Source: a virus. Taken from it: a DNA stretch of 20,327 nt. Each line of letters begins with the position of its first letter. Position 1 is the stretch's first letter. Position numbers and translations under genes: made by a program. The notes under the pieces are model-generated. The model did not search any database. It had not been told where the DNA came from and was given only the letters and a program-made list of their open reading frames with translations. The DNA lies in IMG/VR virus record IMGVR_UViG_3300033143_002256, positions 1 through 20,327 of that record, one strand, 5' to 3'. Below are positions 6,172 to 20,296 of this stretch, one piece after another.

Positions 6172-6603
6172 TTATTTACTCCTTTGCATAAGTATTTGTT
6201 TCCCACGACCTGCCTGAAAAACGAACCCAAATTCTCTTAAAATTTTAATTACTGGATTGTGCTTATTCACCTTAATAAATAATTCCTCTTTTATGTGTAA
6301 TACCATCATTAATATTAATTTATAAATAATAGCGTTATTATCCGCAAGTATTTTCACATATTTTCTTTTAAATTTATCGGCATATCCTGTTATTAAAATT
6401 ATTCCTTTTTCTTCTGTATCATAAATTAAATAATTTCCTTTGGTAAGTCCTTGAAATAAAACTTCTGGATTATCTGATAGGTATAAACGTAAATTTGATT
6501 TGGTATCATAAAATTCGCCATAAAAATCTGGAATCAATCTAAGAATCTGACTAATTGTCAGTTCCTCTTTTTTTGATAATTTTCCTTTTTTAATTTTTAT
6601 CAT
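6172..6603 (-). CDS. Possible GNAT-like acyltransferase-fold phage protein
   Basis: A 143-residue protein taken from the ATG at 6603; a TTG three codons upstream is possible. Neither start has a recognisable ribosome binding site, which is odd beside its neighbours. The sequence runs in the order expected of GNAT folds: an N-terminal helical segment, strands LIYDTEEKGIILITGY, a helix, then ELFIKVNKHNPVIKILREFGFVFQAGRGKQILMQR, where the N-P-x-(I)-x-x-(L)-x-x-x-G-F pattern is typical of the GNAT C-terminal half. The substrate is unknown and the acetyl-CoA loop (RxxGxG/A) is not clearly seen, so it may be a degenerate or structural relative. The gene follows the structured element at 6630-6713. 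Its stop lies 1 nt before the next start, so the two may be translationally coupled. Confidence 0.4.
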   Translation of the reverse strand: MIKIKKGKLSKKEELTISQILRLIPDFYGEFYDTKSNLRLYLSDNPEVLFQGLTKGNYLIYDTEEKGIILITGYADKFKRKYVKILADNNAIIYKLILMMVLHIKEELFIKVNKHNPVIKILREFGFVFQAGRGKQILMQRSK

Positions 6604-6629: not shown

Positions 6630-6713
6630 ATGGAAGAACTGAGTGCTACTAAATGTAGCCAACTTGGTGTGACACTTAGGTCACCAACTGAGGAAGTTCA
6701 GAGAAGAGTCTCT
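6630..6713 (-). ncRNA. Structured element, copy 1 (HNH-adjacent, covarying stems)
   Basis: On the minus strand the element reads: hairpin AGAGA-CTCT-TCTCT, then TTCCTCAG, then TTGG-TGAC-CTAAGT-GTCA-CA-CCAA, then GTTG, then hairpin GCTAC-ATTTA-GTAGC. The same order recurs at 13750-13836. The TGAC/GTCA stem is replaced there by CGGT/ACCG, so three of four base pairs changed on both sides while the CTAAGT loop, the CA bulge and the outer TTGG/CCAA stem are identical. This is what a conserved RNA fold gives and a coding region does not; the frame open in copy 2 has a stop here. It begins at the HNH stop codon and ends about 30 nt before a gene with no good ribosome binding site. Function unknown. 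Confidence 0.55.
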
Positions 6714-7512
6714 AAACCATCAAAATCTGGGTGTCTATAAAATACTGAATCCAGAATTCACGATTCGTATTAGTTGACATATGACAACTTTGGCATAATG
6801 AAACTAAATTATTTAATGTGCAATTTAATTTATCATAATCTATGTGATGTACACTTAATTTACGAGGTATTTCATTTTGTGTAACCCCGCAAATTTGGCA
6901 TTTGTAGTTATCACGTTTGCGAACTTGTTCTTTTAGTTCCTTAGTAAATTCCGTTCCGTATTTTGTATTTTCAAAGGGGATTCCGGTTCCGCCATGACTA
7001 AGACTTAATTTACTACGAGTTTCTTCCGATACCGGTAATCCAAATCTGCCGTTATTTTCGCCTGAAACATCAGCATGATTATCACTCATATTCTGTCGAG
7101 TGGTTCGAGATAAATTTTCTATTTTATTGGCACAAACATTACATCTTCCACCACCATAAATTCCGCACCGAGTAGATATTTTCTTATTACAATCTATACA
7201 AAAATAATCTTTTAAAGTTAATCCTGTTGTATAAGCTGGGTTATTTTTACCCTTTCGTGCACAAGATTTACACAATTTTGAATATCTATAAATTTCTTTT
7301 CCACAATCAGCACATTTGGTGATTAATTTTTCACCGTAATTTCGATGTGCGTCACTCGAATCTCTAGTTATAATTCCATAATCTAACATGTTTCGTTTTA
7401 CAACTCTTCGGTGACAAGGTACTAATTTGGCTATTTTATCCATAGATAATTTTTCAATTAAATATTTTTGTTGTAGCCACACCTTATTAATTGTCTTTTT
7501 AATCTGTATCAT
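6712..7512 (-). CDS. HNH homing endonuclease 1
   Basis: A 266-residue free-standing homing endonuclease. An N-terminal helix-turn-helix-like segment (about 10-50) precedes a first CxxC...CxxC zinc ribbon (C67, C70, C81, C84) and a second one (C105, C108, C124, C127). A NUMOD3-like segment (GENNGRFGLPVSEETRSKLS, 151-170) follows. The HNH nuclease is at 205-244: CQIC, HHID (222-225), N235, and CQSCH with H244. AAAGGT precedes the start. It sits between the capsid gene and the next virion gene, behind its own promoter (7557-7586), and stops at the edge of the structured element. HNH enzymes of this type cut an allele lacking the gene and so spread it. It is a diverged paralogue of the HNH protein at 14142-14975. 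Confidence 0.9.
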   Translation of the reverse strand: MIQIKKTINKVWLQQKYLIEKLSMDKIAKLVPCHRRVVKRNMLDYGIITRDSSDAHRNYGEKLITKCADCGKEIYRYSKLCKSCARKGKNNPAYTTGLTLKDYFCIDCNKKISTRCGIYGGGRCNVCANKIENLSRTTRQNMSDNHADVSGENNGRFGLPVSEETRSKLSLSHGGTGIPFENTKYGTEFTKELKEQVRKRDNYKCQICGVTQNEIPRKLSVHHIDYDKLNCTLNNLVSLCQSCHMSTNTNREFWIQYFIDTQILMV

Positions 7513-7527
7513 TATCTTACCTTTATT

Positions 7528-7557
7528 TTGTAATAAGTTTATTTACTCCTATTACAA
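7528..7557 (-). promoter_or_regulatory. 8-bp inverted repeat at the HNH1 transcription start
   Basis: A perfect TTGTAATA...TATTACAA inverted repeat with a 14-nt loop lies just downstream of the -10 box and overlaps it by one base. The loop holds an AGGAG that has no start codon at the right distance. It could be an operator dyad or a 5' hairpin in the transcript. Confidence 0.35.
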
Positions 7558-7587
7558 GTATACCATACAGGTACCATAGTTGTCAAG
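7556..7587 (-). promoter_or_regulatory. Conserved phage promoter, copy P1
   Basis: On the minus strand: TTGACA (7581-7586), an 18-bp spacer, and an extended -10 TGGTATACT (hexamer at 7557-7562). The spacer holds two ATGGTA repeats 11 bp apart. The 32-bp block recurs at 15753, 17599 and 20265 with a single variable base. It should start transcription near 7550, upstream of HNH1 and the virion genes beyond it. Confidence 0.8.
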
Positions 7588-7591
7588 TGTT

Positions 7592-7622
7592 GAAGGAAGG
7601 GGACTCTTCGTCCCCACCCTTC
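7592..7622 (-). terminator. Strong hairpin after the capsid gene
   Basis: GAAGG-GT-GGGGAC on the minus strand pairs with GTCCCC-TT-CCTTC around a 5-nt loop, giving 11 G/C-rich pairs. It lies between the capsid stop (7681) and promoter P1. No U-run follows in the minus direction, so it is an imperfect intrinsic terminator, or an mRNA-protecting hairpin for the capsid transcript. The rest of 7623-7680 holds nothing recognisable. Confidence 0.5.
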
Positions 7623-7680
7623 TAATTTACTCAATTTATTCATATCAAATGTTGTAACCTGTTGAAAATAAAGAACTTAC

Positions 7681-8619
7681 CTAGACCACATCGTTAGTAC
7701 ATTTTACGATTGACCTAACGTTGGTAATTGCCCAGATAATTTTTTCGTAGGCTATCACTCCGTAGCCAAGTGTGTCCGTGCCGTCGATATTAGTAAGAGC
7801 CTTATCTACAATCAACGCTCTCTGTGCACCATCAACACTAGCACCCATTTGCTGTGCTATAAGCGGACTAACTTTCCGACGTACAAATGCAATCGGTTTA
7901 CCATCAGCGATTCTAGAATTTCTAGCAATCATTATGAATCTATTAGCTGATAACAATGCAGTCATACTTTCATCACCAGTATATTTAACAGAACCATAAA
8001 TCTTAACTACTTCAATACCCATTTTTGCAATTTTCTCTCTAATGGTTACATTATAGTTAAATGTTTCTGCGTTCTCTTTATCATATACATCCAACTTATT
8101 ACTAACAGATGAACCAACTAATAGAAGATATTTATCTCCACGATCTTCAAGTTCCTGTTTTGCCTGAACTATAACATCATACAAATCCTCACCAGAATCC
8201 AAAGTTACGGTCTGAACAGAATCAGAATCGGTAATCGCTTTAAGAATCAAACGAAGTTCAAGTTTATCCATTGCAGCAGAAATACGACCTTTCTTACGTC
8301 CAAGTACTTGCTGGTCAGGTGTATCCATAATCGTATCAAGTAATACATATTCTTTCTTTGAATTCAATCCCTGAAAAGTAAGTTCAGTTACATCCAAAGG
8401 TGATCTTTTTACTGCTGTTACTGCACCAGTTGAAGTATTAACGACATAAATCTCGTCATCATCAGTATCCTCAGATGCATAATACCATGTTTTCTCTCCT
8501 GGTTCTACTACATACGTATCAGCTATTGCTGCAATTTCAACCGGAACGTCTAAATTTGCATTGATCGGTTCGCCAATATATTTCATTATTTCTGTTTGTT
8601 CTTTTGTATACATATCCAT
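7681..8619 (-). CDS. Major capsid protein
   Basis: A 312-residue protein with AAGGAG about 11 nt before the start. It follows portal and protease-scaffold genes, the standard place for the major capsid protein. The sequence fits an HK97-type shell protein: an N-terminal arm, a long central helix (DKLELRLILKAITD, then DLYDVIVQAKQELEDRGDKYLLLVGSSVSNKL), a beta-rich part ending in a surface-loop region (KIYGSVKYTGDESMTALLSANRFIMIARNS), and a C-terminal strand region with conserved turns (DTLGYGVIAYEKIIWAITN). The assignment comes mainly from gene order and size, supported by this pattern. The scaffold is in the preceding gene, so there is no long delta domain. A strong hairpin follows the stop. 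Confidence 0.75.
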   Translation of the reverse strand: MDMYTKEQTEIMKYIGEPINANLDVPVEIAAIADTYVVEPGEKTWYYASEDTDDDEIYVVNTSTGAVTAVKRSPLDVTELTFQGLNSKKEYVLLDTIMDTPDQQVLGRKKGRISAAMDKLELRLILKAITDSDSVQTVTLDSGEDLYDVIVQAKQELEDRGDKYLLLVGSSVSNKLDVYDKENAETFNYNVTIREKIAKMGIEVVKIYGSVKYTGDESMTALLSANRFIMIARNSRIADGKPIAFVRRKVSPLIAQQMGASVDGAQRALIVDKALTNIDGTDTLGYGVIAYEKIIWAITNVRSIVKCTNDVV

Positions 8620-8638
8620 TGTGTGTTTCTCTCCTTTT

Positions 8639-10501
8639 TTATTTTCCTACGTTTTGAAACGCATATTTATTTATACCATCACGAATTTTCTGTGTCTCTG
8701 CATCTATTGCGTTTTTTTGAACAACAGTGCTAATAGTCTCCGTGGCGGTTTCTATATTTGTTACATCTCTCTCTGCTACTTCTTTTCTCAATGTTGCGAT
8801 TTCATAATCCTTCTCGTTAAGGATTTGTTCATCATTCATATCTTTGGCAAAGTCGCCTAATTTATTTCTACGAGTTAAAATTTCTGAAGCATTTGATTTA
8901 TACAGTTCCATTTGTTTAGTTGCAGTTTCAATTTCTAATTTAAATTTACTAATTTCTGAATCATGTTTATTTGTTTCCTCTACTAAATGTGCAATTTCAA
9001 TATCTTTTAAGCTCTTTGTTGCAAAAGCTTCTTTTAATCTGCCTTTCATTTCTCTGGCGATCATTAAAACTCTATTAAACCTTCCTGCGTTACGTCCTAT
9101 GCCTGGTCTACTCGCTCTACGCATTTGACCTCCGCATTTTGAGCATTTTAAATCTTTACAGTGCTCTGCACTATTTTCTTTATTTCCACATTTAATGCAT
9201 TCACAAGCAAATGTTTCTGCCTTTTCTTTCGTTTTTGCTTTTTTCTTTAATGTCATTATTTCATTTGCTAATTTTTTTATACCTTTAATTAACGTAGCCT
9301 TTTCCAATTCCTCATCCTCCAATTCTGTATTTTTTGGTTCTTCATTTATTAATTTAATTTCTTTTATCTTTCTATTTACTTTCATTTTTATGTCAACCGG
9401 AAATTTAATACCACATTTTCTACACTCAGTTTCAAATGGTTCCGAATCATAAAAAGTATCCACTGCTTTTACAGCACCACATTGAGGGCAATGTACCTCA
9501 GTTTCATACAATAAATTTACCATTTGCATTGAATCTGGTTTTTCTGAAGAATGAAATGTTATTTTATATTTCTTTCCGCATCCATTACATTGAACATTTT
9601 GTGTATCTTTTTCATTTGTTAAAATCGTAAAATCTCCATTACATGCCGGACAACTTAATTTATAATCCTTTGTCTGTGGAGGTAATAATACTTCCCCTGT
9701 TGGTGATACAATTGATTTACAAGTCGGGCATGTAAGTTTTAATTCTCCAAGTGTGCCAGGAGTAAATGCGGTTTTACAATTCTGACATGTAACCGTTGAT
9801 ATTGGTGTTGGTGTTACTACCGGAGCCGGTGCTGGCATTAATTCGCTTGTGGCTATTATAACGTCCTCTCTATCATATTTAGTGGCATACTCAATACAAT
9901 CCTTACATAATAAGCCTGTCATATCACAAGCCATTTCTAAAACTTTTGCATCTCTAAATGCCGGAATTTCACCTTCATCTTCAAATACTAATGCTCCGCC
10001 AATCATTGCCATTCCATTTAATTCAAAATTTTTATCATCAACATATTTTCTTAATCTTTTTGGTGCAAATATTTCAAAACTTGAGCTTAATTTACCAGCC
10101 TTACGAAGTAATTTTGCTCTTTTCCATAATTCAGGATATACACTTCGATAAAATGTAGCATAAGCTATTACTTGTTTCTTTTTAGCAATGTATTTAAAAT
10201 CAATATAAGAACCTAAAATAAATTTAGGAATGTGATTTTTATTCATAGGTCTACCAACAATTTGTGGAAGAACTTTTAATAGTTTTTCCTCTACAATAAT
10301 CTGACCATTAGATGATGCTGTATCAGTAAATCCAAAAATAGTTTTAATAACACCTAAGTCGCCAAAATTAGGATCAACTAAAATGCCACGTTTCCTAGCA
10401 GACTCTAATAATTCATTTTTTTCAGTTCCATCCTCTAACACTTCAACCTGAGCAAATTGTTCCATGCTAGATAAAAATTCTTTGACTGCTACACCATTCA
10501 T
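8639..10501 (-). CDS. Prohead protease fused to zinc ribbons and a scaffold-like coiled coil
   Basis: A 620-residue protein with AAGGAG before the start. Residues 1-200 look like a phage prohead maturation protease: GRPMNKNH with a candidate catalytic H90, a strand region KQVIAYATFYRS, and AGKLSSSFEI with a candidate nucleophile at S139-S141. Residues 239-456 carry at least four zinc-ribbon-like pairs: C239/C242 with C258/C261, C284/C287 with C305/C308, C338/C341 with C360/C363, and C435/C438 with C453/C456. Residues about 470-600 are charged and helical, as expected of an internal scaffold. Such enzymes cleave scaffold and capsid arms before packaging. It lies between portal and capsid genes. 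The zinc-ribbon insertion is unusual. Catalytic residues are inferred from position and should be treated as candidates. Confidence 0.7.
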   Translation of the reverse strand: MNGVAVKEFLSSMEQFAQVEVLEDGTEKNELLESARKRGILVDPNFGDLGVIKTIFGFTDTASSNGQIIVEEKLLKVLPQIVGRPMNKNHIPKFILGSYIDFKYIAKKKQVIAYATFYRSVYPELWKRAKLLRKAGKLSSSFEIFAPKRLRKYVDDKNFELNGMAMIGGALVFEDEGEIPAFRDAKVLEMACDMTGLLCKDCIEYATKYDREDVIIATSELMPAPAPVVTPTPISTVTCQNCKTAFTPGTLGELKLTCPTCKSIVSPTGEVLLPPQTKDYKLSCPACNGDFTILTNEKDTQNVQCNGCGKKYKITFHSSEKPDSMQMVNLLYETEVHCPQCGAVKAVDTFYDSEPFETECRKCGIKFPVDIKMKVNRKIKEIKLINEEPKNTELEDEELEKATLIKGIKKLANEIMTLKKKAKTKEKAETFACECIKCGNKENSAEHCKDLKCSKCGGQMRRASRPGIGRNAGRFNRVLMIAREMKGRLKEAFATKSLKDIEIAHLVEETNKHDSEISKFKLEIETATKQMELYKSNASEILTRRNKLGDFAKDMNDEQILNEKDYEIATLRKEVAERDVTNIETATETISTVVQKNAIDAETQKIRDGINKYAFQNVGK

Positions 10502-10513
10502 AATAATTCTCCT

Positions 10514-12004
10514 TTACTTCTTTATAGTTTTTCTCTTTTTTCTTACAATTTTCTTAGTAGCTTTATTATAGTTTCGTTTTTCTACAAGATTTTTTTTATC
10601 ATCTGGAACATCATTATCTTGTACCTTTTTTGGTACAACTTTATTAGTCTGTCTATTAGGGTCAACATCTTTTTCAACGTTTAGAATTACTGGTGGTTCT
10701 TGATCTTCTGGTAATCCACGTTCTTTTTCACGTTTAATTCTCGTTACTTCAGCTTCAAACGGGATTTCAACACCCATTTCAACTGCTGTCTGTCGGCTTA
10801 CAATTCCTCGGTCGTATAAACTACGAATCATAGTTCTAAATTTATCAGTTACAAATCCTTTAACTGGAGAACTTATAATTTCAAAATCTTCATTCATATA
10901 AATTCTATTATTGCTATTCTCTTCAATAACACGGTAAATTAACTCTCTTAAAATGTGTTCCTTAAAATCATTAACGCCTCTTTCAATTTCAGATATAAAA
11001 GCTGTAGGATTAAGAATTGATTCTTTACGATTAGACGATACCGATTCAGCAATGTCAAGAAATCCAAATCCTCCTAAAACTGCTTTCTCAGCTGCTGTAA
11101 ATAATGACGGTTTAAACATAGGTTCCAAATCAGGAATTAGATGTTTAATTTCTTCATCCCATTGTGAACCTCTTGCAAGCATTTCTTTTCTGTATGATGT
11201 AAATGTATCTGCGATTGTGTCTTTAATTTGTTGTAACGAATCCTTTATTTCGGTATCTGTATAAACTTTTCCATTATCTTCTGTTCCCTTTAATGCAGCC
11301 AAAGCTAATGCTTCGCTTCCTTTTTTAAGTAGGAACATATAAGGAACGACCTGATTTAAAATTTCACTTTGTTTTTCTTTTAATGCTTCAATTATTTTAA
11401 AATTATTATAAATGCCTCTTTTTATCATAAATGGTTTAGGATACTTATCGAACCATCTTGCAAAAGGTTTAGTTATAATTACTCCTTTATCTAATGGGTC
11501 AGATTCATCTTTTCCTACAAAATATTTAATATTACCTATTTTTACACCTTTAGATGTATTTGTTTTATCTTGAGCATAAATGCTTTCACCATCAACAAAG
11601 AACATTTTAGTCGGAAATTTTAATCCGTCTACCTTACTCCATTGAACAATTTTTAATACAGGAAATGAAGATGATTTCCAGCGTTCCTTAAAATACTCTT
11701 CTGATAAAGCCTGTAACCCTCTAGGGACTTGACCTTTATAATCAGCATTGATTTCTTTATTTAACCATTGTTTTAATTTTTTATTTAGTTGTTTATTATT
11801 TGTTTCAATAGAATAATTTACTTTGGCACTAGTTACTAAAAAATCACTTAATGAATCAACTAAGCCAGTACAATCATTTCCCTGCATTGTTTTTACACAA
11901 TTTACCTGACTATGAAAATCGGTTGGGACTGATATCTTCTTACCCATACTATTGTATAAAAGATCTACGAGCACACCATTTATTTCCGATGAGGATTGAC
12001 TCAT
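10514..12004 (-). CDS. Portal protein
   Basis: A 496-residue protein directly after the terminase and before the prohead protease, the usual portal position, with a matching length. The N-terminal half holds VDSLSDFLVTSAKVNYSIE and a WLN...GLQALSEEYFKERWKSSSFPVLKI region typical of portals that form the dodecameric DNA channel at one capsid vertex. The middle is strongly helical (LKEKQSEILNQVVPYMFLLKKG; DSLQQIKDTIADTFTSYRKEM), and the C-terminus is a lysine/arginine-rich tail likely to meet DNA or scaffold. Start: AGGAG lies 8 nt upstream, and the ATG overlaps the stop of a 21-codon ORF as ATGA, which suggests coupled translation. No truncation is seen. Confidence 0.8.
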   Translation of the reverse strand: MSQSSSEINGVLVDLLYNSMGKKISVPTDFHSQVNCVKTMQGNDCTGLVDSLSDFLVTSAKVNYSIETNNKQLNKKLKQWLNKEINADYKGQVPRGLQALSEEYFKERWKSSSFPVLKIVQWSKVDGLKFPTKMFFVDGESIYAQDKTNTSKGVKIGNIKYFVGKDESDPLDKGVIITKPFARWFDKYPKPFMIKRGIYNNFKIIEALKEKQSEILNQVVPYMFLLKKGSEALALAALKGTEDNGKVYTDTEIKDSLQQIKDTIADTFTSYRKEMLARGSQWDEEIKHLIPDLEPMFKPSLFTAAEKAVLGGFGFLDIAESVSSNRKESILNPTAFISEIERGVNDFKEHILRELIYRVIEENSNNRIYMNEDFEIISSPVKGFVTDKFRTMIRSLYDRGIVSRQTAVEMGVEIPFEAEVTRIKREKERGLPEDQEPPVILNVEKDVDPNRQTNKVVPKKVQDNDVPDDKKNLVEKRNYNKATKKIVRKKRKTIKK

Positions 12005-12066
12005 TTTATTATTCTCCTATTTGTTAAAACTGTTTGCCAAAATTCTCTGTTACCATTGGTTTTCAT
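12001..12066 (-). CDS. 21-residue ORF made from an HNH endonuclease 3' fragment
   Basis: The ORF starts at 12066 with AGGAAG 7 nt upstream and ends in a TGA that overlaps the portal start. Its first 44 nt (12023-12066) are identical to 14203-14246 inside HNH endonuclease 2, and in the same reading frame: MKTNGNREFWQTVL is the end of the HNH protein. The last residues differ. It is either a translated leader that couples terminase and portal expression or simply the scar of an endonuclease gene once inserted here. Confidence 0.55.
   Translation of the reverse strand: MKTNGNREFWQTVLTNRRIIK
12023..12066 (-). repeat. 44-bp exact repeat shared with the HNH2 gene
   Basis: Identical to 14203-14246 over 44 bp, with clearly different sequence on the high-coordinate side of each copy and only a loosely similar ribosome-binding-site region on the other. 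It marks recombination or loss of an endonuclease gene between terminase and portal. Confidence 0.95.
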
Positions 12067-12081
12067 TAAAATACTTCCTAT

Positions 12082-12912
12082 TTACTTAATACAAACTCCA
12101 ATACCCCAATTAGCTTTAGCTGTATTAGGTTTATTTTTAATTTTAGATTTATTTTTAAACCAACTGATTGCGAAAACTTGAAATGCCTGGTGTAAATGGT
12201 CACAATTAATTTTAGATTTATACTTATTATCGCCGTGCAATCTAGGTGAACTTAGCATATTTGCGAATTCTCTATCTAAATTTAAATCGTATAAACAATC
12301 TATTTTTTTATTATAAAATATATCTTTAATCTGTGCTATTGACCAATCTGAAACATATTCCTGTTCATACTCGTATTTACCATCTTTTTTAATTATCCGA
12401 CCTTGATCGTCTCGTTTATAATCGATATCAATTTTTTCCTGGAATGCCACCCATTCGAGATTTTCTTTTTTAATTGTTTTATTAAGATTACGATAAACTT
12501 GTTTTCCACCGGAATCTGAACAATCGATTCCCGTAATTTCAGCTTGCAATTTCTTAATTAGATATTTAAAAATTTCTGTTTGCTCATCTGGTGTCATTTT
12601 ATATAAACTAATATTATAAACATATTTTAAATTATTATCTTCATTGGTTTTATCAATTTCAAATACTATAATTATTTCCGTAATGTTTTCACCAAAATCA
12701 GAATCAATGTAAGTTGTGGATGCGTTCCCTGGACGTTCAATTATTAAATGAGTTTTCAAATAATACTGTAATTCATTTAAATCTGTAAAATTTAAATCTG
12801 TTTGATTTAATTCAAATCGTTTTACCGGGCGGTTTTTATTCTGTGGATAATAACATTGTCTAATACGTTCCATGTTGTATGTGCCTTCTAAATCCTGAAT
12901 AACTTCAGCCAT
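12082..12912 (-). CDS. terL: Large terminase, nuclease part (downstream of frameshift)
   Basis: This reading frame carries the RNase H-like nuclease of the large terminase, which cuts concatemeric DNA at the end of packaging. Visible acidic motifs are YIDSDFGEN (D70, D72), GIDCSDSGG (D130, D133) and a C-terminal NCDHLHQAFQVFAISW (D238), the usual D...D...DH layout. The ATG at 12912 is probably not the true start: the same frame reads sensibly upstream to about 12996 (28 more residues, beginning SDNWTAERKK), where it would join the ATPase frame. Joined, the protein would be about 545 residues, normal for a large terminase. As given, the gene is split by one base. See the entry at 12888-13718. 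Confidence 0.85.
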   Translation of the reverse strand: MAEVIQDLEGTYNMERIRQCYYPQNKNRPVKRFELNQTDLNFTDLNELQYYLKTHLIIERPGNASTTYIDSDFGENITEIIIVFEIDKTNEDNNLKYVYNISLYKMTPDEQTEIFKYLIKKLQAEITGIDCSDSGGKQVYRNLNKTIKKENLEWVAFQEKIDIDYKRDDQGRIIKKDGKYEYEQEYVSDWSIAQIKDIFYNKKIDCLYDLNLDREFANMLSSPRLHGDNKYKSKINCDHLHQAFQVFAISWFKNKSKIKNKPNTAKANWGIGVCIK

Positions 12913-13718
12913 AATATGAATACGATAAGATGGTGTACTTTCTCCGCCATGTTCTTTAATAGCTTCTTTTTTCCGTTCTGCTGTCCAATTATCTGAAACT
13001 TATCCAAATCAAAAAATATACTTCCTGCTGGTGAATCAGGTGTAAAATTTGTAATTCCAGCAAATCTATGTATGACACCGAGTTCTGATTTAGCATCCGA
13101 TCTAAGTTTTAATACATCATGTGTTTCATAATGCATTTCATCACCATAAAGTTTACTAAAATGCTCGGATTCGAAATACGATCCAGCCTTACTTCCACTT
13201 AGATTCATGTTTACACCGGTAACGGAATGTCCGGCTGGTGTTGTGATTACAATACTATTTTTTCGCTTAGTCTCTGATTGAAATAATTTAAAAAATGGAT
13301 GATTATTCATTACCTTAATGTAAGGCTCTAAAATTTTAGAAACATGTTTTTCATCAAAACTTGTAAACCCGACTGGCCAATCTGAGCAATGATGTGCTGT
13401 GTCTAAACACATATCCATCAATAGACCTACCAACGATTTACCGATTTTGCGGCCGCAATAAAAATACCCTTGACCCGAACCTCGTTGATTGGCGAAATTT
13501 TCTTCAGCACTTATTTCTGGATCATCAGCTAATAAATATTCGTAACTCATAAATGGCAATTGATATAACCTTATTTTCGCACATTCATCTTTTTTATAAA
13601 TCTTTAATGATTCATGATTAAAAAGTTTTTTGGTAAATAATACTTCAGAAAAAAATACAGGGTCTTTTAAATACCCCATAAGCTTAACATCTGTATCAGA
13701 CAGCTTTTCTGTAAGCAT
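12888..13718 (-). CDS. terL: Large terminase, ATPase part (ends in frameshift)
   Basis: This is the packaging motor half of the large terminase. The Walker A variant CGRKIGKS is at 88-95, Walker B KLYGDE at 189-194 with the catalytic Glu, and the coupling motif AGITNFTP at 220-227. Residues 1 to 241 (to about 12996) are in the correct frame. Residues 242-276 look unrelated, and the neighbouring frame continues the protein. The break lies in a run of three T where four would restore the frame: DLDKF would then continue SDNWTAERK. That could be a real mutation or a sequencing indel; no standard slippery heptamer is present. The start has only a weak GAAAG upstream and follows structured element copy 2. 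Confidence 0.88.
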   Translation of the reverse strand: MLTEKLSDTDVKLMGYLKDPVFFSEVLFTKKLFNHESLKIYKKDECAKIRLYQLPFMSYEYLLADDPEISAEENFANQRGSGQGYFYCGRKIGKSLVGLLMDMCLDTAHHCSDWPVGFTSFDEKHVSKILEPYIKVMNNHPFFKLFQSETKRKNSIVITTPAGHSVTGVNMNLSGSKAGSYFESEHFSKLYGDEMHYETHDVLKLRSDAKSELGVIHRFAGITNFTPDSPAGSIFFDLDKFQIIGQQNGKKKLLKNMAEKVHHLIVFILWLKLFRI

Positions 13719-13995
13719 ATTTTCTTTCGATTTATATAGTATTATTTATAGGGGAACTTGATGCTACGGAATGTAGCCAACTTGGTGCGGTACTTAGACC
13801 GCCAACTGAGGAAAACAGGGAATGCAAAGCAATCCCGGTACTTTTTGTACACATGGCACATAAGCTATTTAAAAATTGGGAGTTTTCCATTTAGTCCATT
13901 AGTCTTGAAATGGCGTTGGCATTAACCTTGATGGTATTAACCTCGCTTCAACATCCCTAAAGCAAATTTTCATCCTTGACTTTTTCAATATTTAT
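13719..13995 (-). other. 277-nt intergenic leader of the large terminase
   Basis: No supported gene is present. The low-coordinate half holds structured element copy 2. The other half (13840-13995) has a 10-nt direct repeat (AGGTTAATRC, twice in about 16 nt) and a GTAC...GTAC hairpin. Two short frames (24 and 39 codons) lack ribosome binding sites and are not supported. It is probably the 5' leader of the terminase message or the remains of an insertion. Confidence 0.6.
13750..13836 (-). ncRNA. Structured element, copy 2 (upstream of terminase)
   Basis: Minus strand: hairpin GGGATTGC-TTT-GCATTCCC (one T-T mismatch), TTCCTCAG, TTGG-CGGT-CTAAGT-ACCG-CA-CCAA, GTTG, hairpin GCTAC-ATTCC-GTAGC. 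Compared with copy 1 (6630-6713), unpaired segments and outer stems are identical, and the inner stem differs by compensatory changes at three of four pairs. It lies about 30 nt before the terminase start and about 300 nt after HNH endonuclease 2. Two adjoining stem-loops acting in the nascent RNA would fit an antiterminator-like or translation-control element. This is inference only. Confidence 0.55.
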
Positions 13996-14187
13996 TTAAC
14001 ATTGTTCTTTAGCAATTATATCTAAACTTTTAAATTTAATACCATTAAAAGGTTGTTCAAGAAATTTTTTCTTACATTCTTCACAATAAACACCATTTTT
14101 ACCCTCTGTAGATGTAAATACAGATGCTGGCATTTTACACCCTAAACATATTTTGCGTCCGAAGAATGGTTGATTATTTTTTGACAT
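13996..14187 (-). CDS. Small zinc-ribbon protein (63 residues)
   Basis: AAAGGA lies 8 nt before the start at 14187. The protein has two CxxC pairs, CLGC (about 15-18) and CEEC (about 35-38), enough for one zinc ribbon, followed by a short basic tail. Its first 46 nt overlap the end of HNH2. It lies between the small and large terminase genes and could be a packaging accessory or an old small protein displaced by the HNH insertion. Function not recognised. Confidence 0.6.
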   Translation of the reverse strand: MSKNNQPFFGRKICLGCKMPASVFTSTEGKNGVYCEECKKKFLEQPFNGIKFKSLDIIAKEQC

Positions 14188-14975
14188 TTGTATTTTCCTT
14201 TAGTTAAAACTGTTTGCCAAAATTCTCTGTTACCATTGGTTTTCATATGGCAACCTCTGCATAAGCTAATTAAATTATCTAGGTTCAAATTTTCTTTATC
14301 GTAATCTATGTGATGAACGTCTAATTTACGTTTATTTTGTTTTTCTGTTTTACCGCATAATTGACACTGATGATTATCTCGTTTACGGATTTGTTCTCTT
14401 AATTCTTCAGTCCAACTAATTGGATAAGGTTCAAAACCAATTCCGCCTCTCCAATTAGGTGCATTTTCACCTACCATAAATTTATATGCACAAGAACGAC
14501 ATTTTCCAGATCTAAATCTACCCACCTGATAAGAAATTTCATTATTACAACCTTCTTCTTTGCAATAATATTTCTTTAATGTGATGCCGCCTTTCCAAGC
14601 TGGATTGTTTTTACCTTTAAAATTAATAACTCCCAAACAATGTATTTCTTTCATGGCACAAGATTGGCATCTAATTGCTGACATATTTTTTAATAATTTA
14701 TTACAATCTATACATTTATTAATTTTAATTTGAAATCTTCCGTCTTTATAATTTGGATTATTTTTTCCAATCTGAAATTTCCTACTACATGTTTTGCATC
14801 TTGTTCGTTGATAAGTTATGATTACGCCACAGTCAATACAATGTGGTAAATCACCAGACCGATAGCCGTATTTATATTGATGATTGTTTTTACCTAGTTG
14901 TGCACAATGCCCACATCTTTTAGATTTTAGCTTAATTATTTTACCACAATCAAGACAGTGGTTTATTTTTTCCAT
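14142..14975 (-). CDS. HNH homing endonuclease 2 with four zinc-ribbon modules
   Basis: A 277-residue endonuclease built from repeats. Four CxxC...CxxC-type ribbons (starting at C7, C46, C88 and C138) are each followed by a GKNNPxYKxG-like NUMOD3 motif (28-37, 70-79, 121-130, 169-178). The HNH nuclease occupies 204-244: CQLC, HHID (221-224), N234 and CRGCH. HNH enzymes of this class nick or cut target DNA to copy themselves; the repeated modules probably read the target. The start overlaps the preceding gene by 26 nt, and the 3' end overlaps the next gene, as expected of an insertion into a packed operon. The native end is probably near NREFWQTVLTK; the last residues read through the neighbouring gene's start. 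No strong ribosome binding site precedes it. Confidence 0.9.
   Translation of the reverse strand: MEKINHCLDCGKIIKLKSKRCGHCAQLGKNNHQYKYGYRSGDLPHCIDCGVIITYQRTRCKTCSRKFQIGKNNPNYKDGRFQIKINKCIDCNKLLKNMSAIRCQSCAMKEIHCLGVINFKGKNNPAWKGGITLKKYYCKEEGCNNEISYQVGRFRSGKCRSCAYKFMVGENAPNWRGGIGFEPYPISWTEELREQIRKRDNHQCQLCGKTEKQNKRKLDVHHIDYDKENLNLDNLISLCRGCHMKTNGNREFWQTVLTKGKYKCQKIINHSSDAKYV
14203..14246 (-). repeat. 44-bp exact repeat inside HNH2
   Basis: This is the parent copy of the 44-bp sequence also found at 12023-12066 between terminase and portal. It encodes MKTNGNREFWQTVL near the end of HNH2. Confidence 0.95.
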
Positions 14976-15702
14976 TTTGTTCTTTTTCTTTTAGGTAAAC
15001 TCGATTATATATCCCATCCATATATTCAGGTGAGCATCCAAATATTTCAGCCGCTCGTGTATAATCAATTTTTTTCTCGTCAATAAGTTCCATTACTGTT
15101 TCTGAATAAATATCAGTCGATCTAAAACAAGCCCAATCAAACGTGTTATAATCATCTACTTTACGAAGTAATAATTTTAACTCACCGCAATTAGGGCACT
15201 TAAATGTGAACGCACCTCGATGTGTTACAGCATGTTTGTTTATTTTTTCAAGGAATTCTTGCCAGAAATCCATCCAACCGATCTTCTTTGTTTTATTTAA
15301 TCCTAATTTATTTTTTAAATCTAAATTTTGTTTTTGCATTGATGTTAATGAATCAAGTACAAATTTATTAGGTATTCTATATTCTAGTTTATTACCATCT
15401 TTATCTTCAAATTCAGGTTCCATACTTTTTCTTATTCTATCTTCAAGTATTGTATTAAACACTAAAGTTTTAAGATTTTCCAGGTCAGTAAAACTATCTA
15501 TATGATATCCATTAACATAATTAGCGTAGAGATTGTTTGCTGTTTTAATTTCATTAGAGGCTAGTCCTACCCAATTAACTTTAAGTTTTTCTCGTTCAAT
15601 TTCCTTTAAAGCTAATTCTTTTATTTGCTCTAAGCTCTTGTTGTGATTTTGCTTACGGCTTTTTATTTTTTTCATTCTATTATCTAAAGTAATTTCAGCC
15701 AT
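14950..15702 (-). CDS. Probable small terminase subunit
   Basis: A 250-residue protein at the start of the packaging operon, 45-50 nt after promoter P2 and upstream of the large terminase. The N-terminal part is helical and basic. The middle has WMDFWQEFLEKINKHAVTH and a CPNC (169-172) with C192 as possible zinc ligands. The C-terminal part KIDYTRAAEIFGCSPEYMDGIYNRVY (211-236) resembles a helix-turn-helix. Small terminases bind the packaging start site and recruit the ATPase. Position and DNA-binding features support this, but no conserved family motif is certain. The last residues (about NGKNKPLS) overlap HNH2 and may have been altered by its insertion. Confidence 0.5.
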   Translation of the reverse strand: MAEITLDNRMKKIKSRKQNHNKSLEQIKELALKEIEREKLKVNWVGLASNEIKTANNLYANYVNGYHIDSFTDLENLKTLVFNTILEDRIRKSMEPEFEDKDGNKLEYRIPNKFVLDSLTSMQKQNLDLKNKLGLNKTKKIGWMDFWQEFLEKINKHAVTHRGAFTFKCPNCGELKLLLRKVDDYNTFDWACFRSTDIYSETVMELIDEKKIDYTRAAEIFGCSPEYMDGIYNRVYLKEKEQNGKNKPLS

Positions 15703-15752
15703 AATAATCCTATAGTTGGTTTATTTATATATTATATTTGTTCTTATATATC

Positions 15753-15784
15753 AAGTATACCATACAGGTACCATAGTTGTCAAG
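15753..15784 (-). promoter_or_regulatory. Conserved phage promoter, copy P2
   Basis: TTGACA at 15778-15783, an 18-bp spacer with two ATGGTA repeats, and extended -10 TGGTATACT with its hexamer at 15754-15759. It drives the packaging and head operon beginning at 15702. The 32-bp block is identical to P1. Confidence 0.85.
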
Positions 15785-17431: not shown

Positions 17432-17598
17432 ATAACTTTCTCCTATAATTATTATACTATACTCCCGATACTTATATATTAGACCCACCTTTTATGAGGA
17501 AACTAAAAGTTGTGTCACGTTGCACTGAGCTTACTTGTTCATCGCTTGTCGCTCTTCACAAGGTAAAATCAATTATTATTTCTTTTACCCCTTAATTC
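17432..17598 (-). promoter_or_regulatory. Long untranslated leader downstream of P3
   Basis: About 160 nt separate the expected start of transcription near 17593 from the first usable ATG, while the other conserved promoters have leaders of about 40-50 nt. It contains a GGTAAAA/TTTTACC stem near its 5' end and a CTTGT/ACAAG stem enclosing two GCGA repeats. No gene is seen. It may be a regulatory leader. Confidence 0.35.
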
Positions 17599-17630
17599 AA
17601 GTATACCATACAGGTACCATACTTGTCAAG
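17599..17630 (-). promoter_or_regulatory. Conserved phage promoter, copy P3
   Basis: TTGACA at 17624-17629 and extended -10 with hexamer TATACT at 17600-17605, separated by 18 bp with two ATGGTA repeats. It differs from P1 and P2 at one position, 2 bp after the -35 box, and matches P4. It serves the small-gene operon from 17431 down to 15928. Confidence 0.85.
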
Positions 17631-18790: not shown

Positions 18791-19294
18791 TTAAATCCTC
18801 TGTTTATTTAACGTTTGATAATAATATGATTGCAAAAATGGTATCTGAAAATTATATCCTTCATTTATTGCTTTACTTAACCAAATCAATCTTCCAACTT
18901 TACCATTTAAATCTTGAAACGGATGTATTGCTTCAAATTTATTATGTGCCTCCCAACTGTTCATTCCACTAAAATGATGTATTGCTTCAAATTTATTATG
19001 TGCCTCCCAACTGTTCATTCCACTAAAATCTAACATATATTTACTCATTAAATGTGATACTAAATTAAATTGTGGCGGAAAATAATCACCTACAATTACA
19101 TTATATTTTTTAAATCTACCAACCCAATGCCTATTTAAATATTTACCTAAAATTTTATGTGTTGTTAAAATATCACGTGCTGTATGTATATCACCAGCTA
19201 ATATAAATTCAATAGCATTCATATCGCCAGGATTAATTCTATCTTCACCATCTATGCGATTACTTTCTAACATAAATTTTTTATATTTATTCAT
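18791..19294 (-). CDS. Fic/Doc-family protein with duplicated segment before the active site
   Basis: The ATG at 19294 has GGAGG upstream and is preferred to a GTG at 19306. The 167-residue product follows the Fic fold order: ESNRIDGE near the start, a helix THKILGKYL, then GRFKKYNVIVGDYFPPQ, a helix, and the active loop HPFQDLNGKVGR at 124-135. Fic enzymes transfer AMP or another phosphate-containing group to target proteins; H124 would be the catalytic base. The usual HPFxDGNGRxxR has L for the first G and K for the first R here, so activity may be changed or lost. An 18-residue block is exactly duplicated just before H124 (89-106 and 107-124). A broken second copy of this core lies immediately upstream. 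It could act as a toxin or host-modifying factor; no antitoxin is recognised. Confidence 0.78.
   Translation of the reverse strand: MNKYKKFMLESNRIDGEDRINPGDMNAIEFILAGDIHTARDILTTHKILGKYLNRHWVGRFKKYNVIVGDYFPPQFNLVSHLMSKYMLDFSGMNSWEAHNKFEAIHHFSGMNSWEAHNKFEAIHPFQDLNGKVGRLIWLSKAINEGYNFQIPFLQSYYYQTLNKQRI
18923..19030 (-). repeat. 54-bp tandem duplication inside the Fic gene
   Basis: Units 18923-18976 and 18977-19030 are identical except for the last base. Each encodes FSGMNSWEAHNKFEAIH with one flanking residue. The length is a multiple of three, so the frame is kept. Both copies end at the position of the catalytic His. Confidence 0.95.
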
Positions 19295-19313
19295 TATTTC
19301 CTCCACTGTGATA

Positions 19314-19480
19314 CATTTATTGCTTTACTTAACCAAATCAATCTTCCAACTTTACCATTTAAATCTTGAAACGGATGTATTGCTTCAAATTTATTATGTG
19401 CCTCCCAACTGTTCATTCCACTAAAATTTCAAATTTATTATGTGCCTCCCAACTGTTCATTCCACTAAAATCTAACATAT
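19314..19480 (-). pseudogene. Broken duplicate of the Fic catalytic core
   Basis: This stretch repeats 18862-19038 of the adjacent Fic gene almost base for base, but a 10-nt deletion in the tandem unit puts the parts out of frame. One surviving 40-codon frame runs from MNSWEAHNKF through the HPFQDLNGKVGR loop and ends VSQWRK at the ribosome binding site of the intact gene. A short frame before it ends at LVE. It is a recent duplication scar, though the 40-codon piece could be translated. Confidence 0.85.
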
Positions 19481-20211: not shown

Positions 20212-20264
20212 ATAATTAATACCTTTCTCCATTTAAATTAAACACCAATTTTTATCCTCACTAT

Positions 20265-20296
20265 AAGTATACCATACAGGTACCATACTTGTCAAC
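20265..20296 (-). promoter_or_regulatory. Conserved phage promoter, copy P4
   Basis: TTGACA at 20290-20295 and extended -10 with hexamer TATACT at 20266-20271, 18 bp apart, identical to P3 over the shared block. An AATAATA-c-TATTATT dyad lies just upstream (20302-20316) and could bind a regulator. It drives the operon from 20211 downwards. Confidence 0.85.

Follow-up and report, generated by a model that had tools for sequence, protein, structure and literature searches.

A probably structured double-hairpin element in two diverged copies ahead of terminase and head-block genes in a phage DNA fragment

Gene order and the two copies

The minus strand of the phage DNA fragment analysed here (the window, meaning the whole stretch of 20,327 nt) carries a small double-hairpin RNA element in two diverged copies, A and B. 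The genes and features on this strand follow in the order terS, HNH B, a 63-aa ORF, copy B, terL, portal, a 620-aa protein, MCP, promoter, HNH A, copy A and a GNAT-like gene. The structural gene names rest on synteny and on the sequences themselves, and the family libraries recognised only the HNH proteins. The relevant features are the following.

15754-15783, minus strand: promoter near-identical to that at 7557-7586, upstream of terS, HNH B, copy B and terL
14950-15702, minus strand: terS
14142-14975, minus strand: HNH endonuclease B, its start overlapping the end of terS; recognised by family libraries
13996-14187, minus strand: 63-aa ORF lying between HNH B and the terL leader, its cysteines spaced like a zinc ribbon; no family match
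13719-13995, minus strand: terL leader, with copy B inside
13818-13836, minus strand: leading hairpin of copy B, GGGA...TCCC plus inner TGC/GCA (4+3 bp)
13747-13813, minus strand: element copy B, 67 nt, hairpins I and II and a AAGTTCCCC tail
13778-13808, minus strand: hairpin I of copy B
13763-13777, minus strand: hairpin II of copy B
12082-13718, minus strand: terminase large subunit (terL); name assigned from the sequence and from the position in syntenic relatives, the family libraries giving no match
7681-8619, minus strand: MCP
7557-7586, minus strand: sigma70-like promoter (TTGACA-N18-TATACT) preceding HNH A and copy A
6712-7512, minus strand: HNH endonuclease A, inserted between the promoter and the GNAT-like gene; recognised by family libraries
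6695-6718, minus strand: leading hairpin of copy A, GGTTTAGAGA-CTCT-TCTCTGAACT, a 10-bp stem holding the HNH A stop codon
6629-6695, minus strand: element copy A, 67 nt, consisting of TTCCT, bulged hairpin I, hairpin II and an AGTTC tail
6660-6690, minus strand: hairpin I (bulged) of copy A
6645-6659, minus strand: hairpin II of copy A
6172-6603, minus strand: GNAT-like head-block gene, the name being a guess; no family match

The element measures 67-69 nt and its copies are 79-80% identical (53 of 67 columns; BLAST E 4e-13 within the window), forming the sole such repeat pair in the window. Both contain the minus-strand pattern TTCCTCAGTTGG-NGNN-CTAAGT-NNCN-CACCAAGTTGGCTACATTNNGTAGCA. Hairpin I reads in both copies CAG-TTGG-NGNN, CTAAGT loop, NNCN-CA-CCAA-G-TTG, with the CAG/TTG extension around a bulged G, and hairpin II (5 bp, GCTAC/GTAGC) abuts it with no gap. 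The CTAAGT loop, the CA bulge, the TTGG/CCAA outer stem and GCTAC/GTAGC are invariant between the copies, and when these were folded as 51-mers their best structures were closely alike. The initial annotation had reported this two-copy order of hairpins, and its coordinates, sequences and pairings were all found as described. It had also held that the leading hairpin is kept by position and not by sequence, which was confirmed: the stems of 10 bp in A and 4+3 bp in B stand in register and differ in sequence. A tRNA-like element, suggested by the D-loop look of CTCAGTTGG, was rejected, there being no ARAGORN tRNA or tmRNA call.

Compensatory changes and folding energy

The inner 4-bp stem of hairpin I is TGAC/GTCA in copy A and CGGT/ACCG in copy B, so that three of its four pairs are changed on both sides, exactly the three compensatory changes that had been claimed for it. 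Outside this stem, up to column 52, 42 of the 44 columns are identical between the copies. In a random-placement null, 14 substitutions of the same number and type were dropped on copy A, and a trial passed when a helix of four or more base pairs was kept, three or more of them changed on both sides; this happened in 0.035% of 20,000 trials. When the observed positions were held and only the bases were randomised, 9% (any base) or 33% (same transition count) passed, because all six inner-stem changes are transitions, and pair shuffling passed in 59 of 500 cases. It is thus mainly the placement of the changes that carries the signal; it comes from a single sequence pair, and a proper covariation test would need more than two sequences. 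A control by slid pairing gave 22-50% paired versus 100%, which with two sequences mostly restates the fold.

Folding energies were unexceptional: z-scores of element stretches ranged from +0.4 to -1.9 depending on the stretch, and the two 51-mers gave -1.1 and -1.8. The proven structured RNA HK022 putL scored no better (z +0.5). The proposal of a structured RNA with compensatory changes therefore stands within the limits of two sequences, with unremarkable folding energies, and we regard the element as a real, probably structured orphan.

It has to be considered, as an unlikely though serious alternative, that the element is a recent duplicate or mobile scrap without function, and that chance produced the compensatory pattern among 14 differences, most of them transitions. 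Only two copies exist, with none in relatives or in the collections searched, the stem is kept by 9-33% of random base choices once the positions are fixed, and the window holds other HNH-linked scraps (e.g. the 47-nt copy at 12020-12066). Against such an origin, only 0.035% of trials passed under random placement; furthermore the differences avoid the loop, bulge and outer stem of hairpin I, the distance to the start codon is kept, and both following genes are without a Shine-Dalgarno sequence.

Relatives, HNH genes and database searches

Searches of IMG/VR with MCP and portal yielded eleven syntenic contigs (L012 and L143 being the same contig), the nearest of which, L141, has 73% identity in the MCP (capsid) and 63% in the portal. 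In these eleven relatives the covariance model found no element, either at the corresponding loci or in the whole records (four loci also unfiltered), and none was seen when their terS-terL and MCP-GNAT gaps were read by eye. A search of the whole window against Rfam 15, including HEARO and group I and II introns, yielded nothing that covers the element at E up to 5, and on two short stretches at E up to 10 there was one chance-level match adjoining the element (H19_2, 9.4 bits, E 6.1); the absence of any known RNA family, HEARO and group I introns included, was thus borne out at the level of significant Rfam matches. Searches of INPHARED by blastn (one 28-nt match), of PLSDB, and of IMG/VR and GTDB by pattern gave chance matches only. 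The pattern CAGTTGGN{8,24}CACCAAGTTGGC matched 7 times in viral contigs and 41 times in GTDB, all inspected singly and judged chance, while a loop-only pattern matched once, inside a 619-aa ORF. Short BLAST matches in L078 and L142 were rejected since they had no matching fold or lay at the end of the MCP gene. No further homologue with covariation was obtained from any collection searched, and the element can therefore not be put forward as an RNA family; near relatives of the genome may be missing from these collections, so the absence is not proof.

Both copies had been placed downstream of an HNH gene. This is directly so for copy A, but copy B is parted from HNH B by the 63-aa ORF and about 160 nt. 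The proposed link with HNH genes found no support as a general rule: when 80 loci carrying HNH homologues were searched with the covariance model, only the window copies came back, and in L141 an HNH gene occupies the MCP/GNAT-like junction, the same junction as that of copy A, yet the element is absent. The element is therefore not a regular companion of HNH genes. These observations bear on the suggestion, in our view rather unlikely, that the element is an HNH-cassette RNA or 3' UTR, which would travel with or regulate free-standing homing endonucleases and insulate the genes beside the insertion. In its favour, each copy sits 3' of an HNH insertion, HNH A and HNH B are homologous (73% DNA identity over 172 nt), and L143/L012 has neither an HNH gene nor an element at either junction. 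Besides the HNH-bearing loci devoid of the element, what speaks against it is the spacing at copy B, where the DNA behind the 63-aa ORF looks like a native terL leader.

The 5' part of the window terL leader (13922-13979), just behind this ORF, aligns with the start of the L141 terS-terL gap (shuffle frequency 0.008). Owing to this resemblance, copy B sits in terL's own leader and not only in HNH-borne DNA, and the alignment suggests an old terL leader, with copy B in it, ahead of which HNH B and the 63-aa ORF were inserted. Additionally, the fourfold-degenerate sites of HNH A and HNH B match at 12 of 24 positions, compared with 53 of 67 columns in the element; provided that the HNH genes and the element copies are of equal age, this speaks for selection on the element. 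A 47-nt stretch of the HNH B 3' end (14200-14246) recurs between terL and portal at 98% identity, and may be left over from a second insertion of an HNH gene or from recombination involving HNH B.

Two known kinds of RNA are associated with HNH genes. HEARO, the omega RNA of IscB, is likewise a structured RNA near an HNH gene; it sits upstream of a large RuvC/HNH protein, whereas our element is downstream of small homing-type HNH proteins and has no Rfam model match. HNH genes are often found within group I introns, and GACTAATGG upstream of copy B was the reason for considering a group I intron remnant, which was rejected as there is no Rfam match even on short stretches and no room for the 5' half in B.

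Start codons and possible functions of the element

The element had been claimed to lie about 30 nt before two genes without a clear ribosome binding site. The distance from the end of copy A to the ATG of the GNAT-like gene is 25 nt and from the end of copy B to the terL ATG 28 nt, and neither gene has a Shine-Dalgarno sequence (anti-SD duplex -0.7 kcal/mol for the GNAT-like gene and -0.9 kcal/mol for terL), so the claim was upheld and quantified. Anti-SD pairing is absent at three of 16 scored gene starts (terL, the GNAT-like gene and HNH B, whose start overlaps terS), and the chance that both genes following the element are among these three is 3/120 (calculated by hand).

Since the common denominator of the copies is the gene after them and not the gene before, the explanation we tentatively favour is a duplicated cis-acting leader RNA controlling the expression, probably the translation, of the downstream gene. 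The element would be transcribed from the minus strand and fold into a bulged hairpin stacked directly on a 5-bp hairpin. This folded block would stand just outside the expected ribosome footprint, leaving the A/U-rich start region open, and the constant unpaired letters (the CTAAGT loop and the CA bulge) may be presented to a factor that helps, blocks or protects the message. It would thus affect how the downstream message is started or how stable it is. What is directly seen is the repeat, its pairing with compensatory changes, its placement and the missing Shine-Dalgarno sequences; that it is transcribed, folds in this way in vivo and affects translation or mRNA stability we infer. The near-equal start-codon spacing and the double changes keeping the inner stem argue for a leader RNA. 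Against it, the element occurs in no relative, the GNAT-like gene has a Shine-Dalgarno sequence in several of them, the fold is backed by two sequences only, and the folding energies are not exceptional.

Five relatives with a placed terL start (L143, L144, L147, L148, L149) are also without a clear Shine-Dalgarno sequence at terL and lack the element, so that starts of this kind do not require it. For the same reason we rejected the idea that it is a general Shine-Dalgarno substitute of this phage family. The terL leaders in the terS-terL gaps of L141-L150 are often pyrimidine-rich with repeated TTCC, several without a clear Shine-Dalgarno sequence, as though terL were started by some other means or a DNA site lay in the gap.

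Structured 5' leaders of phage genes, such as the T4 gene 32 translational operator, likewise place a folded RNA shortly before a start codon within an operon. Our element shares this arrangement, but its sequence and fold belong to no Rfam family and any protein bound to it would be hypothetical. If it is a working leader RNA, phage terminase and head genes would be under structured control, possibly with Shine-Dalgarno-free translation. At present the element is an orphan motif whose value hinges on a third copy.

Packaging sites often lie near the terS-terL region, and copy B is located there; it is nevertheless very unlikely, in our judgement, that the element is a DNA site and not an RNA, namely a hairpin-forming or dyad site for packaging, recombination or as an HNH target. 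CCAAGTTGG is indeed a 9-mer palindrome around a central G, and TTCC-rich stretches recur in the terS-terL gaps of relatives. A compensatory inner 4-bp stem with a constant hexanucleotide loop, however, is more in keeping with a single strand that folds than with a site in double-stranded DNA, and the second copy lies 7 kb away at another junction.

A put-like antiterminator had also been proposed. In this reading the nascent two-hairpin RNA would bind the RNA polymerase of the phage or the host, which would then read through terminators lying further along the late operons. HK022 put is defined by binding to the zinc-binding domain of the RNA polymerase beta' subunit and by terminator read-through. 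The similarity in shape is evident: our element and HK022 put both measure ~70 nt, with two adjacent stem-loops and two copies per phage, and in the element a bulged hairpin is followed by a second one. HK022 put likewise consists of two adjacent stem-loops with bulges, and its two diverged copies, putL and putR, are found in one phage (PMC9378689). Each element copy, moreover, is downstream of one of four near-identical promoters, and a strong hairpin follows the MCP gene. There is, however, no sequence relationship: the best local alignments of the element with putL scored 5 and 6.3, compared with 25.2 between putL and a downstream plus-strand HK022 stretch, presumably putR, and a search of HK022 with covariance model R1 returned no credible match. 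The location is also different, since the copies lie ~0.9 and 1.9 kb downstream of their promoters, in late head and terminase operons just before start codons, whereas put sites are closer to their promoters: putL directly follows PL, and ~270 nt separate putR from the start site of PR (PMC9378689). The other two promoter copies have no element, and the post-MCP hairpin is kept in relatives without any element. We therefore consider a put-like antiterminator quite unlikely. We also assign little likelihood to an undescribed phage RNA class, either an RNA-only antiterminator unrelated in sequence to put or a switch allowing translation without a Shine-Dalgarno sequence. If the element were an antiterminator, put-like RNAs would seem to have arisen more than once.

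Some further features of the window were recorded. The four minus-strand promoters (TTGACAAsTATGGTACCTGTATGGTATACTT) lie at 7531-7587, 15728-15784, 17574-17630 and 20240-20296; their spacer, with a GGTACC palindrome, is also conserved and is possibly a phage-specific operator, the relatives having the same promoter type with other spacers. The hairpin after the MCP gene (7592-7622) has no T run and is present in most of the MCP-GNAT gaps read (L141-L151). A T4-type late promoter, TATAAATA, was found after copy B only and is absent after copy A. Upstream of copy B, the terL leader contains a possible 24-aa ORF (MKICFRDVEARLIPSRLMPTPFQD; 13899-13973, minus strand), which could be a leader peptide. 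The terL gene itself is split into two frames near 12.9-13.0 kb (12900-13010, minus strand) by a sequencing error or a real frameshift, the halves being in one frame in L141 and L142. Direct repeats of 53 and 114 nt are located at 18862-19480, in and just outside ORF 18791-19306.
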